From the IMG/VR virus record IMGVR_UViG_3300022698_000267, positions 1 to 37,574 of that record: 37,574 bases of DNA. One strand, given 5' to 3'. The position numbers and the translations under genes were made by a program. The notes under the pieces are model-generated. The model was given only the letters and a program-made list of their open reading frames with translations, was not told where the DNA came from and ran no database searches. The number at the start of each line of letters is the position of its first letter. Positions within the stretch are counted from its first letter, which is position 1. Origin of the DNA: a virus. Below, piece after piece: positions 1 through 19,934 of the stretch.

Positions 1-3000
1 AGTAAGTTCCAGCAGTAGCAGTTCAAGTAGTTCTTCAAGCAGTAGTGAATCATCAAGCTCAAGCAGTAGTGAATCATCAAGCTCAAGCAGTAGTGAATCA
101 TCAAGCTCATCTAGTAGACCAACATTAGGAAATAATGATTTTTCTAACGATGATAATTGTGTAGCTTTATGGTCCTTCGAAGAAGGTGCGTTAACAACTG
201 ATTCCATCGGGACAAATACGCTCACAGACAATAACACTGTCGGCACAAGCACTGGTGATTATAAGGAGGGTGCTGCCTGTGCGGATCTAGAGCACGACAA
301 CGATGAAAATTTATCCATTACTGATTCAAATTTAGATGCTGGATTTCCGATCAAAAATGGTGCAACTACTCCGGCTTTTTCGTTAGCATTTTGGTTTAAA
401 CTTGAAAGTGCTTCGACTTACTGCGGATTAGTTTCTAAATATGCTGTTGATAAGACGACATTTTGGCTGGATCATTCTTCTTCCGGAGGAGGATTACGGT
501 TTTACATAGGGTATAACGGTGGGAGTAGCACTGAGCAGGTTTATAAAACAGATACGGATGGTATTTCGTCATTATCGAACGGGGTATGGTATCATGTAGG
601 GTTAACTTTCAACGATTCAGATAAGTCGTGGAAACTTGTACTATGGGATGATACAGCGGGTAGCAAAATCATTAATGCGAGTGGCACTTCCACGAACAAT
701 ATCAATATAGAAGATGGTCCTCTTGAAATTGGTGGAGCGTCGCCAAATACATTCGATGGCCTTATTGACGAAGTAGTCGTCTTCAAAGACATCCTGACAA
801 CGGATGAGATTGATGCAATTCGCACTGGAACATATTCAGTGGTTAATCCTGCTGATTGGGCTAATAATTTAGAACTTACCATAGATTCTTCTAAAGTTGA
901 TGAAGATCTAGTTGATTTCCCGGTTACGATTCAGCTTAATTCATCCTGTGGTATTACTTCTGCAGACACAACAGCGGTTTTTGACGAACTTGCTTCTGAT
1001 GCTAATAGAAAGAAAATAGCTGTTACAGATTCATCATATCGTCAACTATTCGTGGAGATAGAAAAGTGGGATGATGCTAATGAAACTGCCGTTCTTCATG
1101 TAAAAGTGCCAACGATATCAAGCTCCGCAGACACTACTCTTTATCTGTTCTATGATTCTACTCAGGATGACAACACCTCCTATGTTGGCGACACCACCGA
1201 TGCTGTAACGCATAATGTTTGGGATTCCAATTTTGTCGGCGTCTGGCATATGGCTCAAGATCCGAACGGGGATGCTTCTGGTGCTATAAAGGATTCCACT
1301 TCAAATGCCAATGATGGAACTCCTGATGGAAGCATGACCACCGCTGACTTGGTTGCTGGTAAGGCTGGTGATGCAATAGAGTTTGATGGGACTGATGACC
1401 AAATAAATGTCACAGCAGACGCTAGTCTTACAAATATGTCTGAATTGACTGTTTCGTTGGTAGCGTATATTACTTCAAAAGGGGACTTCGACGGATTCAT
1501 TTCTAAAATGGATGCGTCAATAAATAATACAGATAGACAATATCTGATTTTACTCAACAATGATGCTGATCAAAAGTTATATTCTCCTATTTTCGCTGAC
1601 GATGGCAGGACATCCCCCGATCCGGTTTCTGATGCGGCTTTCCCTGTTGATACATGGAAACATGTAGTTGTAACCTATAACGGGACAACCGCTATCCTAT
1701 ACATTGACGGAGTAGCCCAAACCACTACCGGAGCCACAACAGGTGGTATATTAGACATTTCTAACCCTTTGTTTATCGGAGCGCAAAACCCCACCACCAG
1801 TACGCCTCAAAGAATAAATGGTATAATTGATGAGGTCTGCATATCCTCCACCGCCCGTTCAGCGGCATGGATCAAAGCTACATACAACAGTCTATGGGAT
1901 TCTTTATTAGAGTATTCTGTTGAAGCAGTAAGTTCCAGCAGTAGTAGTTCAATAAGTAGTTCTTCAAGTAGTAGTGAATCATCAAGTTCAAACAGTTCAA
2001 GCAGCAGTAGCTCAAGCAAATCGAGTAGTAGCTCAAGCAGCAGTAAATCATCAAGTTCATCTAGTAAATCTAGTAGTAGCTCATCATCAATCAGTTCAAG
2101 CTCGAGCAAATCATCATCTTCAAGTAGTAGTAAATCATCATCTTCAAGTAGTTCAAGTAGTTCAAGCAGTTCAAGTAGTTCAAGCAGCAGTAGATCATCA
2201 TCTTCAAGTAGTTCAAGTAGTAGTAAATCATCATCTTCAAGCAGTTCTTTTAATATTGAAATTCTAGATTCTTGGACAAATGTTGAACATGAATTAATAC
2301 AAGTAGAATTCGAAGATATTATATACAGTAGTTCATCATCAAGTTCAAGTAGTTTATCAAGTTCAAGTAGTTCAAGTAGTAGCTCTTCTTCAAGCTCAAG
2401 TAGTGAATCATCAAGCTCAAGTATCTCTTCTTCAAGCTCAAGTAGTGAATCATCAAGCTCAAGTAGTGAATCATCAAGTTCAAGTAGTTTCAATCCAGAA
2501 AAGTATGAAGTTCTAGATTCTTCCTGGAGAATTTTTATAGAAGATTTGTTAGATACTTCATGGACAACTGGTTATTTCTCTAATACTTTAGAATCCAAAT
2601 GGAAAATTCAGACTGAAAAAGAGATTGATATAAATTATCGAATCCTTACAGAAAAACAATTCATAACAAGTTATTCGATTTTTACAGAAAAATATCTACA
2701 AACTTCTTATATACTTCATGTCAAATATCTGGAAGCTACAACATCCTGGAAAATTGAAGCAGAACAAGTAATTCGAATAAGCAGCAAAATTCTTACTTTT
2801 AAAGAGCTGCAAACTGCCTGGAGGAAAGCTATTACTTCCAGGAGATTCACTTTCAAGAATTATATTTCTGGAAAGTTAAATAGAAGATTTGGATTAGAAT
2901 ATCATATAACAGATAAAGATTATATAAGCAGGAGATTTACCTCTATTTATGGATTTTCTGAAGAGGGAATTAGAGGTGTATCAGAAAGAATATCTGGAAC

Positions 3001-4111
3001 CTTCAATCCATGGCAAATAGTACATACTGATGTTAATATTCACCCACATTTATATAACACCTATGAATCTGAAACAAATACAACATATGAAAGATACTAC
3101 ATCCTTACAGCCGAAGTAAAGTCTCTAGTATCTAGAGAGTTAATCTATACTGAAGTAAACAACACGTATGAATTCTATTCTGTTGAGGGTGAAGGAAGAA
3201 GAGCATTTTTACATTCCTCTGAGGAACATACCGACGAAAGAAGTGTAACACTAGAAATAACATACGAAGAATCTGGAGAAAGATACACAGTTTCAAGTCA
3301 ACAAGTAATGTTAGTCGATGAGAGGATTAATGTTTTCTGGTCCATTTACGACACATTCAGATATGCTTATGCTAAATCTTGGTATGTAGACGAAAAATTT
3401 GTAATCACACATGCAAGAGATAAATTTAGACAAGCTGATCAAAGATTTTGTATAGCACAAACAGAAGAGAATGTCTTCTCAGGAATCATTCAGCAATTTG
3501 TTGAATCATGTGCAACACAATTCTCTTTCACAGTAAGTCCAAAAACTACGGATTTTGAAATTGGCACTATTGATCCACAATACAGAGACATTTTTACTGA
3601 TGAAATTGTGACTCCAGATTTAATCACTTTTAATATTCTTGACCTAGAAGACAAGTTTTCGGATTTAGATTTCTTCTTCATCGATGCAACAGATAATAAA
3701 AATGTTTCAGTTAATATGGGTACTAATTCAATGTATCTCGCCACCACTTACCAAATAACTGGAACAGATTCAAAATACATTGATGGCTTTTTTGCATGTC
3801 CTCAAGAAGGTTTAGTACATTTTATGATTTGGTTAGAAATAAGCAATTATCGAAAATCTGAATACGGAACTCCACAAGAATTTTTAGATTACCTACGAAG
3901 TAAAGGTTATATAAAAATTACAACCATGGGTGAGGACCTACAAACGATACCACAAATATACGATTGGACTTATCCAAGACTTTCTTTAGTTCCAATTAGA
4001 ATGGAATTTCACAAGGATTTGATAAAAGAGTGTGGTGTAAGATTACGAGTAAGATGGGGCTATCCGATAATAACGCAAAGGATTTATGACTCTTTGATCT
4101 TGATAAAGTAA
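1..4111 (+). CDS. Partial giant tail fibre/adhesin: LamG, DUF2341, LamG, poly-Ser linkers, repeats
   Basis: The reading frame is open from base 2 to the TAA at 4109-4111, so the 5' end lies outside the window; 1369 residues are visible. The GTG at 839 falls between two domains and is not a start. Domains in order: a Ser/Glu linker (2-118); a LamG/concanavalin-like domain (about 158-826) ending in a typical FDGLIDEVVVFKD strand; a DUF2341-type domain (about 839-1220, motif NPADWANN); a second LamG domain (about 1225-1890, VWHMAQD through GIIDEVCISS); a 106-residue poly-Ser linker (1931-2248); a 26-residue insert; a 54-residue poly-Ser linker (2327-2488); about twelve-residue W/Y-x-I-x-TEK repeats (about 2511-2960); and a C-terminal beta-rich region. 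LamG and DUF2341 are carbohydrate- or surface-binding families common in phage fibres. A role as tail-tip or side-fibre adhesin is inferred. The LamG/DUF2341 part looks clearly less AT-rich than the C-terminal part. Confidence 0.8.
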   Translation, partial: VSSSSSSSSSSSSSSESSSSSSSESSSSSSSESSSSSSRPTLGNNDFSNDDNCVALWSFEEGALTTDSIGTNTLTDNNTVGTSTGDYKEGAACADLEHDNDENLSITDSNLDAGFPIKNGATTPAFSLAFWFKLESASTYCGLVSKYAVDKTTFWLDHSSSGGGLRFYIGYNGGSSTEQVYKTDTDGISSLSNGVWYHVGLTFNDSDKSWKLVLWDDTAGSKIINASGTSTNNINIEDGPLEIGGASPNTFDGLIDEVVVFKDILTTDEIDAIRTGTYSVVNPADWANNLELTIDSSKVDEDLVDFPVTIQLNSSCGITSADTTAVFDELASDANRKKIAVTDSSYRQLFVEIEKWDDANETAVLHVKVPTISSSADTTLYLFYDSTQDDNTSYVGDTTDAVTHNVWDSNFVGVWHMAQDPNGDASGAIKDSTSNANDGTPDGSMTTADLVAGKAGDAIEFDGTDDQINVTADASLTNMSELTVSLVAYITSKGDFDGFISKMDASINNTDRQYLILLNNDADQKLYSPIFADDGRTSPDPVSDAAFPVDTWKHVVVTYNGTTAILYIDGVAQTTTGATTGGILDISNPLFIGAQNPTTSTPQRINGIIDEVCISSTARSAAWIKATYNSLWDSLLEYSVEAVSSSSSSSISSSSSSSESSSSNSSSSSSSSKSSSSSSSSKSSSSSSKSSSSSSSISSSSSKSSSSSSSKSSSSSSSSSSSSSSSSSSSRSSSSSSSSSSKSSSSSSSFNIEILDSWTNVEHELIQVEFEDIIYSSSSSSSSSLSSSSSSSSSSSSSSSSESSSSSISSSSSSSESSSSSSESSSSSSFNPEKYEVLDSSWRIFIEDLLDTSWTTGYFSNTLESKWKIQTEKEIDINYRILTEKQFITSYSIFTEKYLQTSYILHVKYLEATTSWKIEAEQVIRISSKILTFKELQTAWRKAITSRRFTFKNYISGKLNRRFGLEYHITDKDYISRRFTSIYGFSEEGIRGVSERISGTFNPWQIVHTDVNIHPHLYNTYESETNTTYERYYILTAEVKSLVSRELIYTEVNNTYEFYSVEGEGRRAFLHSSEEHTDERSVTLEITYEESGERYTVSSQQVMLVDERINVFWSIYDTFRYAYAKSWYVDEKFVITHARDKFRQADQRFCIAQTEENVFSGIIQQFVESCATQFSFTVSPKTTDFEIGTIDPQYRDIFTDEIVTPDLITFNILDLEDKFSDLDFFFIDATDNKNVSVNMGTNSMYLATTYQITGTDSKYIDGFFACPQEGLVHFMIWLEISNYRKSEYGTPQEFLDYLRSKGYIKITTMGEDLQTIPQIYDWTYPRLSLVPIRMEFHKDLIKECGVRLRVRWGYPIITQRIYDSLILIK
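38..109 (+). repeat. Three tandem 24-bp repeats encoding SSSESSSS
   Basis: Three identical consecutive copies of a 24-base unit (38-61, 62-85, 86-109), each coding Ser-Ser-Ser-Glu-Ser-Ser-Ser-Ser, lie inside the N-terminal visible linker of the fibre gene. The unit length is a multiple of three, so gain or loss of a copy would keep the frame. Related but diverged units recur at about 1958-2000 and 2380-2488. Confidence 0.9.
1931..2248 (+). repeat. Poly-serine linker 1, 106 codons
   Basis: Almost pure Ser run with isolated Ile, Glu, Asn, Lys and Arg residues, written with mixed AGT/AGC and TCA/TCT codons. Its beginning (GTAAGTTCCAGCAGTAG) matches the first bases of the window, so the linker-plus-domain module appears to have been duplicated. 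It separates the second LamG domain from a short 26-residue insert. Confidence 0.9.
2327..2488 (+). repeat. Poly-serine linker 2, 54 codons
   Basis: Second Ser run (with Leu, Glu and Ile interruptions) between the 26-residue insert and the repeat region. It contains several near-identical AGTAGTGAATCATCAAG units, the same word as in the 24-bp repeats at 38-109. Confidence 0.9.
2511..2960 (+). repeat. About ten degenerate 12-residue protein repeats (W/Y-x-I-x-TEK pattern)
   Basis: The protein here can be stacked in steps of about 12 residues: KWKIQTEKEIDI, NYRILTEKQFIT, SYSIFTEKYLQT, SYILHVKYLEAT, TSWKIEAEQVIRI, SSKILTFKELQT, AWRKAITSRRFT. An aromatic residue sits near the start, an alternating hydrophobic strand follows, and TEK lies in the middle. 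The short segment between the two poly-Ser linkers has the same flavour (LDSWTNVEHELI). The alternating pattern suggests stacked beta strands, as in a fibre shaft. The repeats are seen directly; the fold is inferred. Confidence 0.75.
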
Positions 4112-4159: not shown

Positions 4160-4915
4160 GTGTATTTAAAAGAAGAAATTGTATTGCTAAATAAACCTAT
4201 TGTATACCTCAGATACTGCATGGTACATGGAACAACTGTGGAAGCTTATCTTTATGACAATGTCAGAAAGGAGAATGTCTACAAGCTGGATAGGATTTAT
4301 TCGTTGCATAATTCAATACTACAAAATCAATTTTCTATAGATGAAGATAAATCTATGATGTACGTTTCTATGGGAATGGATGGTTTGTATCTTCGAATTC
4401 TATACTACACAGAAGGGAAGGACAACACTTACTATGTTGGGGGTAATCTGGATAGATTTCTTACCAGAATGTTACAATGGTCGGAAACCAGAATAGTAGA
4501 TGGTTTATTTATACATTGGCCAGCAAATGAAGAGGGACAACCAATAAAACAAATAAAGGGTGGATCTTTCATATATGAAGGGGAATTATACGTCTATCCG
4601 GGTGGTGTTTTCGATATTAGACAGCAAGCACCTCCAACTGTTAAAGAAACTTTTAGATCCTATTTTCTATTCGTTAATGGTGAATGGTTGTCTAGTTATG
4701 TGTATAGACAAAATAAAATGTTGAATAAAATTGGGATTATTCATTCTACCTGTACTGATCCTGATGTTTGGGTTACATTAAAAGACGTTAATGCGAAGTA
4801 TGAAAATATGTATACGTCAGCACCATTAGGAATTGCTTATATTCACATATACTTAATGAGCTCGATGGATTATGAAATTTGGGTTGAATATCCTAGAGAT
4901 GCAAGGGTGATATAA
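4160..4915 (+). CDS. Unknown virion-region protein (251 aa), possible neck/tail component
   Basis: GTG start at 4160 is preceded by a purine-rich GGAAGGA at about 4143-4149. The stop overlaps the ATG of the next gene by one base (TAATG), which suggests translational coupling. The protein is rich in Tyr and beta-strand-like segments (for example SFIYEGELYVYPGGVFDI) with no signal peptide, membrane segment or catalytic motif that I recognise. Its place just upstream of the probable tail tube and chaperone genes suggests a neck, connector or tail completion role. That is inference from order only. Confidence 0.65.
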   Translation: MYLKEEIVLLNKPIVYLRYCMVHGTTVEAYLYDNVRKENVYKLDRIYSLHNSILQNQFSIDEDKSMMYVSMGMDGLYLRILYYTEGKDNTYYVGGNLDRFLTRMLQWSETRIVDGLFIHWPANEEGQPIKQIKGGSFIYEGELYVYPGGVFDIRQQAPPTVKETFRSYFLFVNGEWLSSYVYRQNKMLNKIGIIHSTCTDPDVWVTLKDVNAKYENMYTSAPLGIAYIHIYLMSSMDYEIWVEYPRDARVI

Positions 4916-5451
4916 TGAGTTGTGTCTACAATTACAATAAAATCTTTCAGGAATACGGTTCAGAGATTCGAAATATTATTTTGAATGACACATCCAAACC
5001 CTTTTTAGTTTATGAAACAAAACCTGATGTTCCAGATGCACCATTTTATGGAATGTTGATATGGAACACACAACAGTACTACAGTACCATATATGAAGCA
5101 GATAGCACTGAGAATTCAACGACTTATCTGAATGACATAGGATTTTTCGTTGTTCCAGAATTTGGAGATGTTAAAATCATTCCAAGTGTAGAATACAGAC
5201 AAACAATAACAATGGCATTTGACACGAATACTGATCCAGATTTTGATCCGTATGGATCTAAAATAATCGAATTTATAGATTGGTATATAAATAGGCATTT
5301 GGAATTGGTGGAAAATTTAAATTTTACTCTCAGTAATAATACCAGATTGTTTTGTATGTTATCTAATATATCAAAACCAATATATGGTAGAGGGAGTTCA
5401 TTATTAGTAAGGAGGTCGGTTTTAATAACGTTGCGATATTGTCGATGTTAA
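4915..5451 (+). CDS. Unknown tail/neck protein (178 aa), tail-terminator candidate
   Basis: ATG at 4915 overlaps the preceding stop by one base. The protein has a helical start (YNKIFQEYGSEIRNIIL), a mid-region of strands, and a final basic strand (SLLVRRSVLITLRY). Small proteins of this size, ending in a strand and encoded just before the tail tube gene, are often tail terminator or head-tail joining proteins. I do not recognise a specific family, so this assignment is positional inference. Confidence 0.6.
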   Translation: MSCVYNYNKIFQEYGSEIRNIILNDTSKPFLVYETKPDVPDAPFYGMLIWNTQQYYSTIYEADSTENSTTYLNDIGFFVVPEFGDVKIIPSVEYRQTITMAFDTNTDPDFDPYGSKIIEFIDWYINRHLELVENLNFTLSNNTRLFCMLSNISKPIYGRGSSLLVRRSVLITLRYCRC

Positions 5452-5502: not shown

Positions 5503-6210
5503 ATGGGCGCATGTCCAGTTGTTGATTATGGAATTCCAGAAACTGGTGCTACAGAATATTCAGTTAGTAGTGGAAGGGAGTTATTCCAGTGTGGCAATTC
5601 CTGTGTTAAGTTGTTTATTGTAAACCTTACGGTTGAAACCACAACAGTTACTATTTCTTGTGGATCTATTGACCAAGCTGTTCAAGGCGATATTTGCTTG
5701 CGAAGTGCCAATGTTGGTCTTCAAGATCAGGCAATTGTTAATTGGGTAGCAAAAGATGATGTTGATACGAACACAGAAGTGGGTTATGTTATCAATCGAG
5801 CAAAACCTTGTGGAGGTGGTGAAAGCACAATCTATACACATACTGATGGTCAAATGTCAATTAGAGTAACTGCCAATATTGACAGTATTATAAGCGAGAG
5901 AGATAATCTGGAATCGCTAGCTTCTGGCAAACTAGCAGAAGTTTGTACTGGACAGGTTGCTACGATGATTGGTGTGGTAGATTTCATCTTTTCAGATACC
6001 AGCACAGATGCAAGTCCTACAGATTGGCAGGGTGGTGGTCTTACCTTTCAAGCTTTTGGAACAGATGAGGGTGCAGGTGGAACTAGAACCGCACGTGCCA
6101 ATTTCAATTGGCAAAATGGACAGGCAGAATGTAGAGATGGGTCTTTGGAGTACGATGAAACTGCAACACCACAGGATGTTGGTGCTTTGATTGATGCAAT
6201 GATTGCTTAA
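5503..6210 (+). CDS. Probable tail tube (major tail) protein, 235 aa
   Basis: ATG at 5503 has a strong Shine-Dalgarno AGGAGGT at 5489-5495, spaced 7 bases, as expected for an abundant product. The sequence is beta-rich, with Thr/Val/Ile strands (FIVNLTVETTTVTISCG). It has eight scattered cysteines (PCGGG, CGNSC and others), unusual for a tube protein. It lies 20 bases upstream of a two-frame tail assembly chaperone; the classic order is tube protein, chaperone, tape measure. The identity rests on that order and the strong translation signal rather than on a recognised domain. Another abundant structural protein is the main alternative. Confidence 0.55.
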   Translation: MGACPVVDYGIPETGATEYSVSSGRELFQCGNSCVKLFIVNLTVETTTVTISCGSIDQAVQGDICLRSANVGLQDQAIVNWVAKDDVDTNTEVGYVINRAKPCGGGESTIYTHTDGQMSIRVTANIDSIISERDNLESLASGKLAEVCTGQVATMIGVVDFIFSDTSTDASPTDWQGGGLTFQAFGTDEGAGGTRTARANFNWQNGQAECRDGSLEYDETATPQDVGALIDAMIA

Positions 6211-6230: not shown

Positions 6231-6770
6231 ATGTCAGTACAAAAACTTACGATTGAACAGGTCCCAAAAGATGTTCTAGGTGATTTAGAAGCATTGATCA
6301 CCGATTCAAAGAAAGAGTACGTTGCTATTGGCTCTTCTTACTATGCAATGACACCAATGCCAGCTATCCAATTAATGGAAATTCTAGGAAGGTTCATGGA
6401 AGCTTTAGAAGGGGTTAGACGGAAAGTTATTGAAAACATACTTTCCGAGCTAACCCCTGATCAACAAAAGGAATTTAATTCTGCTAACGTATTTGTAACA
6501 ATGCGAGATATGTTAAAGGATACAGATTCTTTAGAATTAATAAAAGAGTTGATGTCCAAGGTCCTTACTGGTGTAGAACCAAAAGATTTAGATTCTATTA
6601 CTACTAATCAATTGGCTAAAGTGATAGATGTTGTGGTAAAAATAAATATCAATACATTGCCACAATCATTCCGGGAAGCTTTACTTCCTGGTTCTACTAT
6701 GACAGATGAAGAGGGTATAAAGTCTCCTGAGGAAAAAGAGGAGGCTACTGATCCAACAAAAAACCCCTAG
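6231..6770 (+). CDS. Tail assembly chaperone, short form (gpG-like), 179 aa
   Basis: ATG at 6231 follows an AAAGGAAAAG ribosome binding site. The protein is almost wholly helical and acidic, with no signal peptide, and ends in a charged tail (EEKEEATDPTKNP). These traits fit phage tape-measure chaperones such as lambda gpG. The decisive evidence is at the 3' end: zero-frame codons ACA AAA AAC CCC TAG contain the canonical slippery heptamer A AAA AAC (6758-6764) immediately before the stop, and the -1 frame is then open for 449 codons. Sequence similarity to a named family was not established. The chaperone role is inferred from the frameshift architecture and the position after the probable tube gene. 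Confidence 0.7.
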   Translation: MSVQKLTIEQVPKDVLGDLEALITDSKKEYVAIGSSYYAMTPMPAIQLMEILGRFMEALEGVRRKVIENILSELTPDQQKEFNSANVFVTMRDMLKDTDSLELIKELMSKVLTGVEPKDLDSITTNQLAKVIDVVVKININTLPQSFREALLPGSTMTDEEGIKSPEEKEEATDPTKNP

Positions 6771-8113
6771 ATGCCCGACTATACCTACCGTTTTTACAAG
6801 TAGTTTGTAATGCGGTAAATTCAATAGTTTCGTATGGTATTAGTCGTGGCATAATTAATGTTAATGATCTTCTTTACGACAATTCTTTTACTAGATGTAC
6901 GCTAAGTGGAAACCTTTGTACAGCTAGTTGTCCAAAAATAGTGCAGTTTTGTAAACATAAAAAACTGGAGAACAGGTTTCTGACCATAGGACAAGTTTAT
7001 CTATTGAGTAGAAACGTACAAACCAGAAATATACAAGATAAAGATTTCCTAGTTAATGTTATCACAGGAAATTCAATAATCGACGATGGCAATCGTGAAG
7101 TTTTGATTTATGACCCTATGGAAACACTAGAAGAAGATTGGATGCATTTATTTCCAGAACCAGATATTGAGCAAATTAGATTTTCTTCCACAAGTAAACC
7201 AGCCGAAAAAGAAAGTTCTACGAAAAAAGAGGAAAATCCCATTCTACTTTACAGATCTAATATGAAAGATTTAATGGAAAGATTAAAAGGAGAATCTAGA
7301 ATAAAAGAGGTCCAAGATTTAAAGAAGTTACTTCAATCAGAGCAGGTTGACAAAGGATTCATTCGAAATTTATTAGCAAAAATGGAAAGAAAAGAGATTT
7401 CACATAATTACATCTCTTTAATTGAATATGGAAAGATGTTAGAATCTTACATTAACCTTGAATCTGATTTTGAAACGAAAGATATTGAAATCATCCTCAC
7501 TTATTTAATGCTAGCCTATCAACCAATGGATAGATTGGATTTTCCACATATAGATGTAAATAAAGGAAAGATAAACAAGTTGATATTAAAAACAAAGGGT
7601 TTGAAAGATGAGCATCCAAATAAATGGACTAAAGATAGGTATGATAATATTAGGAAACAAGTAGATCCATATAAGAAGTTGCTCTACTTTGATAATAGAA
7701 TGTTCATTTGGTTTACATATATTAAAAATTCTAACATAGAAAATGTTGGGAAAGAAAGTATATTAACCAAATATCTTTTAGACATTATTTTAGTTAAAAT
7801 TTATCAGTTATATGGAACCAGATTTATGGTACTTCCTTACAAAGAAAATGAAGAGTTTTACAATAGATTCAAGAAGTTTTTTAGTATAGTTTTTAAGATC
7901 ATATCTTCAAATCCAAATATTTTTAATGTTGGATCTAAACCTAATTTAGATTTTTTTCTTCCAGAACAATTAGATAATCAATACAGAATCAAAGAAAAAG
8001 TAAGTATGAAGAAAGATATTGAGTCTAAATTAGAAAAAGCTATTCCAAAGAAGCGTGAGGTCTTTCAATACATGTTACAGAAAGGATTTTTAGAAGAGTT
8101 CCCGGTTATATAA
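6231..8113 (+). CDS. Tail assembly chaperone, -1 frameshifted long form (gpGT-like), about 627 aa
   Basis: Slippage at 6758-6764 would join 178 residues of the short form to a 449-residue extension read from CCC at 6764 to the TAA at 8111-8113. The first ~58 codons of the extension have no ATG, GTG or TTG. The first GTG (6941) has no Shine-Dalgarno, so the extension has no credible start of its own. The extension begins PLDARLYLPFLQVV, then carries a Cys cluster (CTLSGNLC, CTASC, then FCKH) and a long Lys/Glu-rich helical part. The extension is much longer than the usual T domain of about 100-150 residues, so it may carry an extra tape-measure-binding or enzymatic role. No catalytic motif is recognised. 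The alternative is a separate gene starting at 6941. Confidence 0.7.
6758..6850 (+). promoter_or_regulatory. Programmed -1 ribosomal frameshift signal: A AAA AAC plus 8-nt spacer plus stem-loop
   Basis: The heptamer AAAAAAC (6758-6764) is in the correct phase (AAA AAC are zero-frame codons). After an 8-base spacer that contains the TAG, bases 6773-6785 (GCCCGACTATACC) can pair with 6836-6850 (GGTATTAGTCGTGGC), giving 13 base pairs with single bulged T's at 6841 and 6847. A second hairpin sits inside the loop: TACCG 6786-6790 with CGGTA 6813-6817, and TTACAA 6794-6799 with TTGTAA 6805-6810. Pairings were checked base by hand; energy was not computed. Confidence 0.8.
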
Positions 8114-12233: not shown

Positions 12234-15200
12234 TTATCCATACAAACTCGCTGAAGGTGTATTAATTGTGACATGAGTTGCCGCTGGTCCTCCCGATTGT
12301 TGTTGCATCGAATTTCTCATTACTGGTTCTGGATTCTGCATTGCTGGTTGTTTCTGTTCTATTTGTTGTACTGCCGGAGGTTGTCTTTGTATTCCTGATA
12401 AAGTGTCGAAGCTGCTCATTTCCTTATTCATTTTTTGAAGATCATCACTTTGATTTCTTTCTATAACAGTTCCTAAACTCTTATCACTTGCAGATTGTCT
12501 TAGATTAAAAGCAGCTACTTCTTGTAGTGTTTTTGATCCTTCTGGTGTAGGTGTTCCTAAATCAGTTTCTAATTTCTTTCTAGGACCTCCACTAATGGAA
12601 TTTATTGCTTGTGAAACGCTATCTCCTATTTTATCTGCTTCTGAACCACCAGAAAAAGAACCATAACTAAATCTTCCACCCATCTGTTCAACTAGTTTTT
12701 GAGCTGTATCAACAGATTTTTCTGCTTGTTCACGTGTTCTTTCTGGACCACCCATAGACATATTGATTGCAATACGTCTTTCTTTATCCTTTCTAGCAGC
12801 AAGATCTTCTTCTGCCCCAACAAGGTCATAGGCATCATAATCTCTAGGACCAGCTAATAATGCTGGGTCTATTTTTTTAGAACCTTCATCTGGTGGAGCA
12901 CCTCCAGATTGCCATTTTTTATTCCACTCCCGAAGTCTTGCTGCCCTTGCTTCTTCAGGAGTCATTCTAGGTCCTGTTCCACCAGCCTCCTTTGTAGCAG
13001 CATCCTGTGCAGCAGCCTTTTCTTTCTCATATTGTTCTTCTTGTAATTTAATTCCCCAAGGACTTAGTGCTAATCCTCTAGCAGAACTTCCAGCTGGTGC
13101 CATCCAGCTTCCTGGCAAACTCCCTGGTATGTTGCTTCCTGGACTATTAACATTTCCTCCTCCTGCATTTTGTTGTAAAGCCATAAGTGTCGGTGAGAAT
13201 TGGGTTGGATCAACAGTATACTTTCCAACTTCAGTTCCTCCAGTTCCAGCTCCAGGAACTGTTATGCCACCAGAACCTTTTGGACTGGTTTTAAGAGACT
13301 TATAACTAATACCACCAGAACTATCATAAATTTTGGCTTGTTGTTCAAATGACCTTCCGGTTTGACTAGCCATTTCCTGTATTTTGGCTCTTTCTACTTC
13401 TGTATACTTTCCAGGTCCTTCAGTTCCTCCGGCTCCGATATTTCCAAAAAACTGCTGTGCTGCAACGTTGTCTGTGACTTGTTTTGTTTTTTGAATTTCT
13501 TGTTCAACAGCGTCTTTCGTTATTCTGGCAGAACCTGATGCTGTTGCACCTGCTTCAGTTGATATTCCGGCTGTTGCTCCTTTTGCTTTTGCAATTCTTT
13601 TTGCAGATGCTTCTGCTTCTTCTTGAGTAACTGTAAAAGAATTTCCAAAAAGATCTCCTATTTTGTGTCCAGCTTTAAGTCCTCCTGTTCCCCAATCTAG
13701 TAAAGCTTGACTCTCTGCCATATCTCTGTCTGTTAGTGCTAAAGCTTTCATCGGATTAGCACCTTCAGCACGATGTTTTGCAAATTGTCTAGCTCTTGTT
13801 TCAGCTCTAAACATCTCTGGAGACATTTCATTGCCACGATATGTTTTTCCAGTAGAAGGATCTGTGGATGTTATATATTTTGCATTAAAGTCCCTTAACC
13901 TAGAAATTCGTTCCTGATCAGTTTCTTTTGTTTTGCCATCTGCAGTTGCTCCTCCTCCATATTTTGATTGCAATTGCTTCATCGTTTCTTGGGCTCTTGC
14001 ACCTAATGGGCCCAAAGCTTGTTGAATTGAATCTTTACCATACCCTTCTGCTTCCAGATCCGCACCTAATCTTTCAAGAGTCCTGCTTCCAGAGGAAAGA
14101 AGACCCATAGATTTTTCTGCAACAGTACCTCTTGGTACTGTTCCAGATCCAGTAGACTCTGCTGCTCTTCTACCTTGACTTTGTCTTCTTTCTTCATATG
14201 ACTCTCTAGCAGATCTTTTTAGACGTTCCCATTGAGTTGATTCTTGACCAGTTCCGGGAGTCGTTCCAGGACGGACGGGTGATTTGGAACTACCCAAAAT
14301 ATCTTTAAGTGGTCCTGGAACTTCATCTCCAGTAGGACTTGTTCCAGGAATTTCTGCAGCTCCTGCTTCAGTTCCTCCAAATAACCAATCTGCAGCTTGT
14401 AGCATCAATCCAAGCATTGGATTAATAGTACGAACTCCATGTTTTGCAGCACCCAAACCTAATTGACGCAAACCTTTTTTCTGTGCAGCAGCTTTTGCTT
14501 TAGAGCTCGAAGGAGATTCCCCTGGAGGGTAATTGATATCATCATGTCCAAGTTCTGTGTCGAACAAGATATCACTCCACCGTTTATTATTTACTGGTTC
14601 AGGCCAACCGAAATCCTGAACAGTTCTATTCATTCTATATTGACCTGTTTTTTTATCTTTAATAGGTGTTTCTAAAGGTTTGTAACCTATAACTTTATCG
14701 TCCTTATCTCTCACTGGTTGTAAACCTTGTAGTGCATACATTTCATCTATACTTAATTGTGCAGACCTATCTTTACCAGGACCTTCTCCAGCTTTTCGAA
14801 CAACGGCAGAGTCAGGTTTACTTCCATCCAGAGGAACATAAGCTAATGGATTATCGTTTTTATCGTAGGTTTCTCTTCTACCAGTTGCTGTGTTGTCCAA
14901 TGTGGTAGTAACTATACCTTTGGAAATCATGTTCAAAGCTTCAGCTGCTATAATTGCTGAACTTGCTACACTGTCTAATCCTATTGACGCAGTTTTACTA
15001 GCATCTGCCTCTTGATTTTTAGCTTGTTCTAAAGACTGACCTTGACCTTCTTTCGTTTTACCAGCCATGTCATCAAGAAGTTTTTTAGCTAATCCTGTAT
15101 TACCACTAGATGTGGCCTTTTCTAGTTCTACTATTTGTTTTTCAAACTCATCTGTGCTCATATTTCTTTTCATACTAGGTCTAATGAGTCTACCAATATC

Positions 15201-18200
15201 ATCCATACTACGACCACTCATTAGAAGGGAACTCATCATATCTGGAAAGTTCTTGGTCATAGTGCCAACATCAGCTGCTCCGGTACGTAATAATCTGGCA
15301 TATAAGCCGCCTTTTTTCTTTTCACTAGCTGTCCACTCTTCAGCAGTTATGGCTCCACTAGCTACACCTAAAGTTATAGCGCTCCTAGATCTAGTAAATT
15401 GATCACCAAACATTTGATTTACAGTACCAACCACTTTTGCAACGTTTTGTTCGTATTCAGTTCTGGTGGCTATAGTAGCATCTGGAATTGGTTCTGCTTT
15501 TATTGGATATAAAGCTCTATCTAAGGCTTTTCCATATATTGGTGCCTGGATAGCTTTAAAAACATCAACATCTGCTCTTCTATAATCGGCACCTTGTTGT
15601 GCTCGTTTTCGTAATTCACCTTCTGAAAAAAGATTCTGAAGAGCTTTATATGAATCAGGTTTCATTTTAATATCTGTGAATTGACCTATAGCATCTACAA
15701 ATTTACCTATAGCTTGTACGAAAGCATCTGTTGTTCCAGCTTTCATTTCTCCAACTTTACCAGTTTTTTTATCATATTCAAAATATTTTCCTGGTTCAGT
15801 TGCAAGAGAAGCCACCATTTGTCCTAGGTCACTTCTCTGCCATTCTTTTCTAAGATCTGAATCATTCTGTGGCATTAGTAATGACAATTTTGATGCTGAA
15901 ACATCTGATCTTCCACTAAGTTGTTTTCTAATTAAACCTACAGAAGATTCATATGTATCAAGCATTCTTCTAGCAGGTAAAGAGTATGAAGCCTGTGTAT
16001 ACTGTTTTATAGCATCATATTCTTCTGGACTAACCACTTGATTTTTAACTAAACCATAAGTTTCATTTATTCCTTCAACATCCTTTGCTGCTTTCGTTTT
16101 CGTTTCTGTGACTGCTAATTCAAGAGGTCTAATTTTTGTGGATTCCGCTCTTTCTCTAAAGAATTTTAGGGCTTCTGCTTGTCTTTGTTCATCACCTTTT
16201 TGTCCAAGGAATTGTTGTCCCATCAATCCAGAAAGACCTATTCCTGCACCTACCAATGCTCCAACTGGACCTCCTACAGCCATACCCACAGCAGTACCAC
16301 CTAATACTCCCGCTCCTCCAGAAAGTATAGATCCAATATCCCATGCATTTGGAGCTCCCCCACTTCTTTGTACAGATTGGTAACGTTCATAAGCGGAAAG
16401 TCCTAAAGCTGCCACTCCTGCTCCAATCCCAGCTCTTCTAGCCCATTTTCCAGGTGTTCTTAGTCCAAATCTCTCTCTTAGATTTTTTGGTTCTCTTCCT
16501 ACATAAAGTCCAGTTTCATCCAAGTCATAAACTAAACGGTTCATACCTCTTTGTGCAGTTCTGGAGGCCATTTTTCTTGCAATTGCAGAGCTTGAATCTC
16601 TGTAAGCGTCTCTACCCATTCCATAGAGTCCTCTTCCAAGCTGAGGTCCAAACATCATTGCAGCAGTCAGTCCTACAGGCATTGCTAGATCAGAATAATC
16701 TGCTTGTCCAGTTCTCTCTTGTAATCTTCTTAAAGCTCCATATTTTTCGAAACTTCTTTGCATCATTGCAAATCCAGCTATCTTTGGTGTAGCTTCGTAC
16801 CACTTAGCCTGTTGATTAAAAATTTTGCCAATTTGTAACCAAGTTCCGGCTCCACCAATGGTTGAACCAATATCAGATACACCAATATTGCCACCTTTTC
16901 CAGACAGAAAATCTAAACCACCTTGAGCAGTATTTTGTATCACTCCACCAAATAATTGTCCAGGCATTCCTAATGCAGCCTTTCCAGATTGGACCATAAT
17001 AGCTTGTGAAATTGGTTCGAATAGACGCATTCCAATTTTTCCAAGAGAATCCCGCACAGATTTTATAGCCCTAGAACCAGGACCAGTTGCTAGACCATCC
17101 ATTGCATCATTGACAGAATCTTCCAAATCTTTCATGAAAGTCTTTATATATCGAACTACTGCGTCTGATTTGGCTTTTTGTCTTCCTTCTGGAGTTTCCA
17201 CCTCCCCTCTATCAATGGCACTCATTCTTCCCCTAAAAGATGACATTCCTTCTAAAGTTCTGCCACCAAATCTTTCAACAAGTCCAGCTATACCACCAGA
17301 TATTCCAAACCCTTCCATAATTGGGGATAAGGCTGAGTTAAAGGCAGTTGTTAGAAGAGCCAACATTCCTTGGGTTGTTCCATATGAACCTTGAACAAGG
17401 GATTGTACATTGCGACCATAACTTTCTTGAAATTGTTCTTGTCTTCCTGGTTCACCTTTTAACTGGTCTAGATATTGAGCAAGATTTTTACTGGGATCGT
17501 ATTTCACACCAACATCTACTGCTGCCCTTTCTAATGCAGCATTTTGAAACAACTTTACTTGAGCTTCTGGAAGTATTTTTTCTAAATTTGATCCTTCTAT
17601 TCTAGATCCTCCTGGACCTGGAGTCATATTTTGTTGAAGCAGACCTGCATATTCTGATCTAATATTGGTAACCATTGGTTCAATTATAGAACTGGTTAGT
17701 GTGTCTCCAATATTCTTTATCTGTACATCAAATTGTGCTCCTTTTTTCAAAAGGACTTCCTGACCACCCATCATGTTGGATAAACCTAAATTTAAAGTTC
17801 GAATCATATCTGCTCCAGATTCTCCCTTAAATTCTTCATAGGATTTTCCAGCATATCCAGCAATAATTTCTGGGGAAATATTAAATCTTCTTTCCAGTGA
17901 TCTAAATTGTCCTGCTAAAAGCTCTCTGATAGCAAACACTGCACCACTGGTCCCCTGTTCAGGTGCAAGCATTGTTAATAACTGCGTTGCATCAAACATC
18001 TTTTCTTGAAATTCACTATTTGTAGCTTGTGATCTAGTACCAGGGTAAATGGACATGGCTGTTAAAACTTCCATGGCCTCTGGAAATTGGATAGGTTTTG
18101 TTCTAGCAGTTTCTAATGCTTTTCCAACGGCTTGTTGTGCATACATCGATGATCCCAAGAGAGATGTCATTGTATTTACTCTTGAAGTCATATCATTCAT

Positions 18201-19934
18201 AACTGCTGGAGCGGTTTGAGCAAAACCAGTAAATTCTTGTTGGAACGATTGCATACCAGTAAGGCTTCCTAAAGCCTGATGCACTGGTCCCATCGTTTGA
18301 TAGGTGGATTCCATTGGAACTTGTGTAAGTCCTTGGAAGATAGGACTGGAAAACCCAAACATCAATGCCCACTGGAGTTGCATTGCATTCATTTCAACGA
18401 ATTTGCCCATTGTTTGGGTCATTGGTTCAACTGTTCCAGATTTAAATTTTTGTGTAGTACTAAGGCCCCTTTCGCCACCTAGAATACTTTCTCCAGTTTT
18501 AAGAGATTTAATAGTGTCTGTCAGACTTACAGCATCATTCATTCCGGCTTTTCTAAGTGTTCTTCTATCCATTCCAGCCATGATTTCATCCATGGCTTGC
18601 ATAGCTCTTTCAGAACTTGCTATGGCTGCTGTATTGGCAGTGGCGAATCTTGGATCACTTGGATCCATTTCAGCCACTTTTCTTTGTAACATTCTAGATG
18701 AGCTAAATTGTTTTTGTACATCTTCTAATTTCTTAGAAAATGTATCTCCACTAGAAGCTGTAGTTCTGAATTTAGCATTTACTTGATCAAGGGTTTTGAG
18801 CAATTCTGGATTGGATTGAACCCTTTGTATAACACCTGCACCTAAAGCTCCACGATATCTTGACAAATCTTGTACAACAGCACCAGTTGCACCTTTGGTC
18901 GAACTTACCTGAGTAGCAGTTTGTACTTGTCTAATAAGGTCTTGTGCATAACTTCCCATTGCAGTTGGAGAAGATCTATAACCTCCACCAATGCTCCCCG
19001 CGTCTAAAGATATTCCTCTGGAATGGCCCAAAGATTTGTAGGATTCTTGGTAAGCTGCTGAGTATCTTTCAAGTGAAGATTTTGTTAGTCCAGACACATC
19101 GGCCATATGTCTAGCAGTTCGTTGTTCCAAACCAGTTCTAGCATTTGATATTAGGCTCATTCTTTGAGGTTGTGGAATTGAATTGAAGGCACCAGCATTA
19201 ACCATCTGATCCAGTTTACCTCTAGTAAACATTGCTGATGTTACATCATCCAGGACTTTAGCACGTGCACCTAAGAAATCGAAGGACCGTCCTAGACTTC
19301 CCATTAAAGAATTGATTTGATCTGGATTCATTCCTTGTTGTGCTATCCGACCAAATTCATGCGCAGCCTGTCTGTGTGGAGCCCTGCCATATGCTAAAGG
19401 AGCTTTGTTTAGCCCCATCATTGTAGCTTGGATTTCAGATTGTCTTAAAGAAGTGACAACACCAGTACGTTGTTGATAAATACCAGCATTTGTTATTCCA
19501 GAGACTCTTTCTTCTCTGGTTATTTGATTTTTAGTTCCTGCTGAAAAATTCTTGACATTAGCTGCAGCTGCATTTAATTCACTGCTGAATTGTTTAACAT
19601 TACCTGCTGCTCCTCCCAATGCTCTGACGAGTTCAACAATGGCATTTAGATCTGCACTGTTGATACCACCACTACCTCTAGTAGCGGTGTTGTTGTCAAC
19701 TCTTCCAAAAGCTGCAGTACCTGGTGTTGCAGTTGTACCACCTGACGTGGATCCTCTTCCAGTTCCAGATCTAATTCTATCTGTTTGACCTTGTACATAT
19801 TGGAGGATTTGCATAACTCTTTCTCTTGCTGCAGCATCCATTTGTGAAAAAGCAGCATCAAGTATAGAGCCATCAAGTAGATCAGAACCTAAATCAGTAC
19901 CATCTGGTGGTCCTTCATCAAAGGGAGTTGGCAT
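12234..19934 (-). CDS. Tail tape measure protein, 2566 aa
   Basis: ATG with an AGAGGG ribosome binding site. Very long, helix-rich and Ala/Gln/Met-rich in its N-terminal half, with the typical tape-measure core around 18300-17600 (QFRSLERRFNIS.E.. segment, as in TMP domains of many phages). A Gly/Ala-rich hydrophobic stretch encoded at about 16170-16430 (GGTAVGMAVGGPVGALVGA and flanks) is a candidate membrane-inserting segment for DNA injection. The C-terminal ~900 residues are Gly/Ser/Thr/Pro-rich and look disordered, ending in THVTINTPSASLYG. I see no lysozyme or peptidase domain. The protein would set tail length and sit inside the tube with the chaperone. It lies on the strand opposite to the chaperone and tube genes, which is unusual. 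Confidence 0.85.
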   Translation of the reverse strand: MPTPFDEGPPDGTDLGSDLLDGSILDAAFSQMDAAARERVMQILQYVQGQTDRIRSGTGRGSTSGGTTATPGTAAFGRVDNNTATRGSGGINSADLNAIVELVRALGGAAGNVKQFSSELNAAAANVKNFSAGTKNQITREERVSGITNAGIYQQRTGVVTSLRQSEIQATMMGLNKAPLAYGRAPHRQAAHEFGRIAQQGMNPDQINSLMGSLGRSFDFLGARAKVLDDVTSAMFTRGKLDQMVNAGAFNSIPQPQRMSLISNARTGLEQRTARHMADVSGLTKSSLERYSAAYQESYKSLGHSRGISLDAGSIGGGYRSSPTAMGSYAQDLIRQVQTATQVSSTKGATGAVVQDLSRYRGALGAGVIQRVQSNPELLKTLDQVNAKFRTTASSGDTFSKKLEDVQKQFSSSRMLQRKVAEMDPSDPRFATANTAAIASSERAMQAMDEIMAGMDRRTLRKAGMNDAVSLTDTIKSLKTGESILGGERGLSTTQKFKSGTVEPMTQTMGKFVEMNAMQLQWALMFGFSSPIFQGLTQVPMESTYQTMGPVHQALGSLTGMQSFQQEFTGFAQTAPAVMNDMTSRVNTMTSLLGSSMYAQQAVGKALETARTKPIQFPEAMEVLTAMSIYPGTRSQATNSEFQEKMFDATQLLTMLAPEQGTSGAVFAIRELLAGQFRSLERRFNISPEIIAGYAGKSYEEFKGESGADMIRTLNLGLSNMMGGQEVLLKKGAQFDVQIKNIGDTLTSSIIEPMVTNIRSEYAGLLQQNMTPGPGGSRIEGSNLEKILPEAQVKLFQNAALERAAVDVGVKYDPSKNLAQYLDQLKGEPGRQEQFQESYGRNVQSLVQGSYGTTQGMLALLTTAFNSALSPIMEGFGISGGIAGLVERFGGRTLEGMSSFRGRMSAIDRGEVETPEGRQKAKSDAVVRYIKTFMKDLEDSVNDAMDGLATGPGSRAIKSVRDSLGKIGMRLFEPISQAIMVQSGKAALGMPGQLFGGVIQNTAQGGLDFLSGKGGNIGVSDIGSTIGGAGTWLQIGKIFNQQAKWYEATPKIAGFAMMQRSFEKYGALRRLQERTGQADYSDLAMPVGLTAAMMFGPQLGRGLYGMGRDAYRDSSSAIARKMASRTAQRGMNRLVYDLDETGLYVGREPKNLRERFGLRTPGKWARRAGIGAGVAALGLSAYERYQSVQRSGGAPNAWDIGSILSGGAGVLGGTAVGMAVGGPVGALVGAGIGLSGLMGQQFLGQKGDEQRQAEALKFFRERAESTKIRPLELAVTETKTKAAKDVEGINETYGLVKNQVVSPEEYDAIKQYTQASYSLPARRMLDTYESSVGLIRKQLSGRSDVSASKLSLLMPQNDSDLRKEWQRSDLGQMVASLATEPGKYFEYDKKTGKVGEMKAGTTDAFVQAIGKFVDAIGQFTDIKMKPDSYKALQNLFSEGELRKRAQQGADYRRADVDVFKAIQAPIYGKALDRALYPIKAEPIPDATIATRTEYEQNVAKVVGTVNQMFGDQFTRSRSAITLGVASGAITAEEWTASEKKKGGLYARLLRTGAADVGTMTKNFPDMMSSLLMSGRSMDDIGRLIRPSMKRNMSTDEFEKQIVELEKATSSGNTGLAKKLLDDMAGKTKEGQGQSLEQAKNQEADASKTASIGLDSVASSAIIAAEALNMISKGIVTTTLDNTATGRRETYDKNDNPLAYVPLDGSKPDSAVVRKAGEGPGKDRSAQLSIDEMYALQGLQPVRDKDDKVIGYKPLETPIKDKKTGQYRMNRTVQDFGWPEPVNNKRWSDILFDTELGHDDINYPPGESPSSSKAKAAAQKKGLRQLGLGAAKHGVRTINPMLGLMLQAADWLFGGTEAGAAEIPGTSPTGDEVPGPLKDILGSSKSPVRPGTTPGTGQESTQWERLKRSARESYEERRQSQGRRAAESTGSGTVPRGTVAEKSMGLLSSGSRTLERLGADLEAEGYGKDSIQQALGPLGARAQETMKQLQSKYGGGATADGKTKETDQERISRLRDFNAKYITSTDPSTGKTYRGNEMSPEMFRAETRARQFAKHRAEGANPMKALALTDRDMAESQALLDWGTGGLKAGHKIGDLFGNSFTVTQEEAEASAKRIAKAKGATAGISTEAGATASGSARITKDAVEQEIQKTKQVTDNVAAQQFFGNIGAGGTEGPGKYTEVERAKIQEMASQTGRSFEQQAKIYDSSGGISYKSLKTSPKGSGGITVPGAGTGGTEVGKYTVDPTQFSPTLMALQQNAGGGNVNSPGSNIPGSLPGSWMAPAGSSARGLALSPWGIKLQEEQYEKEKAAAQDAATKEAGGTGPRMTPEEARAARLREWNKKWQSGGAPPDEGSKKIDPALLAGPRDYDAYDLVGAEEDLAARKDKERRIAINMSMGGPERTREQAEKSVDTAQKLVEQMGGRFSYGSFSGGSEADKIGDSVSQAINSISGGPRKKLETDLGTPTPEGSKTLQEVAAFNLRQSASDKSLGTVIERNQSDDLQKMNKEMSSFDTLSGIQRQPPAVQQIEQKQPAMQNPEPVMRNSMQQQSGGPAATHVTINTPSASLYG

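Follow-up and report, generated by a model that had tools for sequence, protein, structure and literature searches.

Predicted -1 frameshifting from a probable tail assembly chaperone into an unusually long extension in a large phage with T4-type head proteins

In the phage described here, a short gene ends a few bases after the heptamer A AAA AAC, and a much longer open frame continues from it in the -1 register. The locus raises the question of whether ribosomes pass from one frame into the other, and of what the joint product would be for. Judging by its sequence, we regard -1 ribosomal frameshifting at this locus as close to certain, and the explanation that best accounts for the whole is probably that it yields two forms of a tail chaperone from one message.

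The DNA analysed, which we call the window (37,574 nucleotides), comprises bases 1-37574 of the 273,563-base IMG/VR record IMGVR_UViG_3300022698_000267, a large uncultured bacterial virus. Its head proteins are of T4 type but very distant, and include relatives of gp17, gp20 and gp23. The major capsid protein is a Gp23 (PF07068, E 9.9e-42), and the same phage encodes a T4-type large terminase and portal and a Clp-like head protease. We found no close phage record, the best capsid match being only 27% identical. Scanning viral contigs directly with the short protein, the extension, the capsid protein and the terminase gave zero relatives, and a scan that used aligned distant capsid proteins found two: G001 (IMGVR_UViG_3300021505_000001, an IMG/VR contig of 155.7 kb) and G002 (a 59-kb fragment without the chaperone region), with capsids 61-63% identical. 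Further scans with two- and three-sequence alignments, and of genome contigs, found no additional cassette-bearing relatives, and the conservation evidence for the cassette comes from one relative, G001.

Several other features of the record are worth describing. We counted 20 tRNA genes in the contig, and the tRNA array includes a well-formed tRNA with anticodon CUA, of the amber suppressor type (contig 127867-127944), as also carried by the Bxz1-like phage ErnieJ. Despite this tRNA, TAG terminates about 24% of the open reading frames, and within genes conserved with G001 or G002 no in-frame TAG occurs in the window's contig. A 188-aa protein without a PHROG match (contig 253786-254352) is 78% identical in G001, the other shared proteins being about 19-63% identical. 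Kelch-type repeats are numerous in a protein of 1824 aa (contig 246630-252104) that is 51% identical in G001; such content is unusual for a phage protein so large. Between the capsid and protease genes lies a giant protein of 2566 aa (window 12234-19934, minus strand), with homologues of 1769 aa in G001 and 2163 aa in G002; such variable length would be compatible with a tape measure or with an inner head protein. A laminin-G-like protein with serine-rich tandem stretches is encoded at window 839-4111. Both contig ends have similar repeats that code for serine, and they overlap by 8 bases, which suggests that the record is near-complete and broken within a repeat.

Table 1. Features of the frameshift locus and its neighbours, in window coordinates.
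Feature	Position	Strand	Details
Conserved neighbour, same operon	4915-5451	+	178 aa; in G001 adjoins the chaperone directly upstream
Conserved upstream neighbour, tail tube candidate by position only	5503-6210	+	235 aa, 47% identical in G001
Short zero-frame product, probable tail assembly chaperone	6231-6770	+	179 aa; TAG 6768-6770
AGGAGG, possible internal Shine-Dalgarno-like stimulator (inference)	6739-6744	+	13 nt upstream of the heptamer
Slippery heptamer A AAA AAC	6758-6764	+	in phase; same phase kept in G001
-1 frame extension	6764-8113	+	449 codons (6764-8110) plus stop
Predicted stimulatory stem-loop	6771-6852	+	outer stem 6771-6785/6836-6852, inner hairpin 6786-6817
Four-cysteine motif, putative metal site	6896-6952	+	C45, C52, C56, C63; conserved in G001

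The slippery heptamer, the -1 frame and the downstream RNA

Counted from the start of the open reading frame at 6231, position 6758 is a third codon position, and the zero frame at the junction reads AAA AAC CCC TAG. The original prediction had described a heptamer in the correct phase followed by a zero-frame TAG, and both are found where it put them; all its coordinates are accurate to 2 base pairs or better. It had also described a -1 frame of 449 codons with no start in its first 58 or so and a product of 627 aa, and here too we agree: the earliest ATG, GTG or TTG in the -1 frame is GTG 6941 (codon 60), and the predicted fusion, with ...ATDPTKNPLDAR... at the junction, has 178 + 449 = 627 aa, more than three times the length of the short product. 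In E. coli, A AAA AAC is not known to rank with the strongest slippery sites. Internal Shine-Dalgarno sequences stimulate frameshifting at some bacterial sites, and the AGGAGG upstream of the heptamer could add such stimulation. AGGAGG is found 7-20 nt upstream of 0.4% of random in-gene points; the equivalent in G001 is GAGG only, 7 nt upstream of the heptamer.

The RNA past the heptamer is predicted to be strongly folded. Folding of 6758-6860, a check proposed together with the prediction, gives -29.4 kcal/mol (z -4.46, with none of 200 shuffles as low), and the 90 nt 3' of the heptamer are more stable than 99.6% of random 90-mers from the contig. The predicted 13-bp stem (6773-6785 with 6836-6850), with two single-T bulges and enclosing a second hairpin, is present, and it is slightly longer than proposed, with 15 predicted basepairs in the outer stem and bulges at U6840 and U6847. 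It begins 6 nt after the heptamer (7 nt in G001). The suggestion that loop bases 6818-6835 form a pseudoknot did not hold up, as their best pairing of 6 bp is matched by 82% of shuffles. Against Rfam, the stem-loop gives only sub-threshold, irrelevant matches. Inside the short chaperone gene there is a separate 17-bp hairpin (window 6410-6458, z -5.45), and no counterpart of it is among the strongest folds of the G001 homologue.

Could this arrangement occur by chance? Regardless of phase, the heptamer is common, with 17 occurrences in the window versus 19 expected. Among 73,437 codons it appears 12 times in phase; 2 of these cases lie within about 4 codons of a stop, versus 0.16 expected. The second stop-proximal heptamer, at the end of contig ORF 41220-41828, was rejected as an instance of the same arrangement, as the overlapping ORF lies in the +1 frame and has its own start. 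The longest wrong-frame run free of stops within genes has 182 codons, and 91 of the 12,602 runs reach 58. The start-less prefix has an atypical codon usage, scoring below 98.7% of in-frame windows and resembling that of non-coding frames, which may be due to constraint from the overlapping stem.

Conservation in G001 and other ways to read the two frames

The short protein is 40% identical in G001 and the extension 29%, and the extension has nearly the same length in both phages, 449 codons in the window and 447 in G001. The G001 short gene ends in ...GAA AAA AAC CAC TAA, where the heptamer (L104 8085-8079, minus strand) and its phase are as in the window, and the stop codon, a TAA 10 nt past the heptamer start, is different. 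The RNA after the G001 heptamer also has a stable predicted fold (MFE -28.3 kcal/mol, z -4.68), in the stablest 0.2% of that contig. With positions counted from the heptamer, the two phages share the outer pairs 14-93, 15-92, 16-91 and 17-90. Pair 14-93 changes on both sides, from U-A to C-G, and pair 15-92 changes from G-C to G-U. Because the bases between largely differ, the predicted RNA structure is conserved rather than the sequence, in a comparison of two sequences with few events.

The alignment of the two extensions begins at residue 1 (PLDAR in the window, PLNAR in G001). For the first 58 residues, all of which precede the window's earliest start codon, the local score is 104, versus 23.0 +/- 4.4 for shuffled sequences, and none of 2000 shuffles reaches it; the 23 residues preceding the first ATG of G001 score 43 versus 16.2 +/- 3.7. 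As similarity begins at the first -1 codons, before any start in the window, the two frames are joined, on sequence evidence. Chance is ruled out because the cassette is conserved in G001. The original prediction had looked to relatives for conservation of the heptamer and stem, and G001 keeps the heptamer, its phase, its nearness to the stop, the position of the stem and the start-less prefix. Conversely, loss of the heptamer, or a start with a ribosome binding site for the downstream frame, is not seen in this sole relative. Slippage itself would be expected to take place in the host, in a minority of ribosomes.

The same comparison bears on explanations that keep the two frames apart or join them by other means. 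We think it very unlikely that the second frame stands alone as a gene, translated from GTG 6941 or by ribosomes that reinitiate past the stop. GTG 6941 opens an ORF of 390 codons, and codon 24 of the G001 extension is an ATG preceded at 6 nt by a weak GGA, but GTG 6941 is without a Shine-Dalgarno sequence (neighbouring genes have AGG to AGGAGG), and ATG 6771, which adjoins the TAG, is in the zero frame and terminates after 10 codons. With similarity to G001 running from residue 1 and three of the four conserved cysteines encoded upstream of GTG 6941, a protein initiated independently would miss the conserved N-terminal part. A shift of frame made by RNA polymerase slipping on the A run, and not by the ribosome, strikes us as similarly improbable. 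Bacterial polymerase slippage usually takes place on runs of about 9 or more, and the runs here, 6 A in the window and 7 in G001, are short for it; such slippage would need neither the exact phase of the heptamer nor a stem 6-7 nt downstream, yet both are conserved. The break does fall within an A run, as it would if the stop were a homopolymer sequencing or assembly error in a single 627-aa gene, and we give this reading almost no credence: the break recurs in an independent contig, G001, with another stop codon and another stem sequence, which excludes an indel error. We also rejected amber readthrough of TAG 6768 by the phage's suppressor tRNA as part of the mechanism: reading would end at TAA 6816, only about 16 codons further on, and G001 has TAA where the window has TAG.

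Accepting a frameshift still leaves the identity of the gene to be decided. Among PHROGs, the short protein best matches phrog_1613 (E 4.7e-5), a tail assembly chaperone family, and it scores 18.0 bits against PF21822 (Phage_TAC_15), where its G001 homologue scores 14.3 bits over the same region, both below the cut-off of 22. The G001 protein has no phrog_1613 match, and searching the genome with phrog_1613 leaves the window's gene unscored at E 0.1. The chaperone gene is the last of its operon, and the next gene is on the opposite strand in the window and in G001. We find no tape measure gene downstream of the cassette in either genome, and none of tape measure, sheath or tube was identified elsewhere in the genome. 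The upstream tail tube candidate matches no family or PDB entry, and no structure with confidence. The modest profile scores, the lack of a tape measure gene downstream and an extension three times the normal length without any match would all fit a real frameshift in some other virion or assembly protein with a large second domain. We consider this unlikely, given that the best PHROG match is nonetheless a tail assembly chaperone, that TAC_15 aligns to the same residues in both homologues, and that a -1 site at the extreme end of a short protein, with a long -1 frame after it, corresponds to the G/GT layout. From these weak profile matches and the layout, the short protein is probably a tail assembly chaperone.

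Comparison with known tail chaperones

Among long-tailed phages, frameshifted tail chaperones are widespread (PMC5009743, PMC12846349, PMC10885494), with 2,397 of them annotated in 3,679 SEA-PHAGES genomes (PMC10885494). The lambda gpG/gpGT mechanism is summarised in PMC5009743, where T4 is named as an exception to chaperone frameshifting. According to Vladimirov 2022, as cited in PMC10885494, some T4-like phages encode the long fused form in a gene of its own, separate from a short gene.

The lambda gpG/gpGT pair has the same two-frame layout as the window, with a short protein and a -1 site at its end. The differences are several. The lambda T frame has 144 codons versus 449 here; in lambda, G and T are flanked by the tail tube gene V and the tape measure gene H, and here no tape measure follows; the lambda heptamer is different, while the window has a strong stem-loop; and we found no sequence similarity to lambda. 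Among contractile-tailed phages, the Bxz1-like ErnieJ, SPO1 (gp10.2/gp11.1) and the Pakpunavirus Adele also make two chaperone forms by frameshift. The short form of ErnieJ has 179 aa, equal to that of the window. The extensions are again shorter, about 124 codons in ErnieJ and about 121 in SPO1 versus 449 here. The SPO1 frameshift is +1, unlike the -1 here, and Adele makes a -1 shift at GTTTTT with an extension of over 200 bp (PMC12846349). In all three phages the tape measure gene comes next, and in the window it is absent from that place.

The comparison with T4 is different, as the window's phage shares T4-type head proteins, but T4-type chaperones use two genes instead of a frameshift. 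T4 gp51 and gp26, which we take to be the separate short and long chaperone genes, also hold cysteine pairs. Neither the short protein nor the extension has a significant match to T4 gp26 or gp51 with hmmsearch and hhalign, and we rejected the extension as a homologue of them on these grounds. Elsewhere in the contig, the last third of a 298-aa protein (183060-183956) weakly resembles T4 gp51 (phmmer E 3e-4), and 13 of its 13 tblastn matches are gp51-type (E 0.02-0.9); profile comparison gives no backing to this protein as gp51-like, and we do not retain it as such. By its sequence, the phage thus appears to combine T4-type head proteins with a chaperone signal of the G/GT type, and not with a T4-type chaperone.

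The long extension and the proposed roles of the two forms

The extension is 3.1-3.7 times as long as those of lambda, ErnieJ and SPO1, a comparison of three annotated records and not a survey, and the predicted excess of about three to four times the usual T-domain length holds against all three. Its conserved cysteines are spaced C-x6-C-x3-C-x6/8-C. It has no credible match in Pfam, PHROG or PDB, and tblastn with both parts of the fusion from both phages against 50,697 phage records gave zero matches. AlphaFold models built from the two sequences were unusable (pLDDT 32 for the extension and 36 for the upstream protein).

In the mechanism that we propose, the majority of ribosomes would terminate at TAG 6768 and produce the 179-aa short protein. 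A minority would stall at the stem-loop as they decode the Lys and Asn codons of A AAA AAC, shift back by one base and add 449 residues, making a rare 627-aa fusion. By analogy with lambda gpG, the short form would coat the tape measure protein, and the long form would recruit the tail tube protein through its extension, as gpGT does. The length of the extension and its cysteine motif suggest that it may do more than the usual T-domain role. A bolder version, in which frameshifting gives a T4-type-head lineage a 449-residue domain, whose conserved cysteine motif is of the metal-binding type, on a minor product with a second job beyond tube recruitment, is a speculative one that we hold only tentatively; such a job might be, with the same reserve, to organise the baseplate or the tape measure's end, or to remain in the virion.

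The mechanism itself is already known in phage tail assembly. What is new here is the length of the extension, its novelty, and the conservation of both its length and its cysteine motif. With this locus, a rare clade of large T4-headed phages gains a frameshift signal that is well supported, and T4-like phages are reported not to frameshift their tail chaperones, in contrast with the phage of the window. The unusually long and conserved added domain lets the role of the long form in tail assembly be tested beyond the lambda model.
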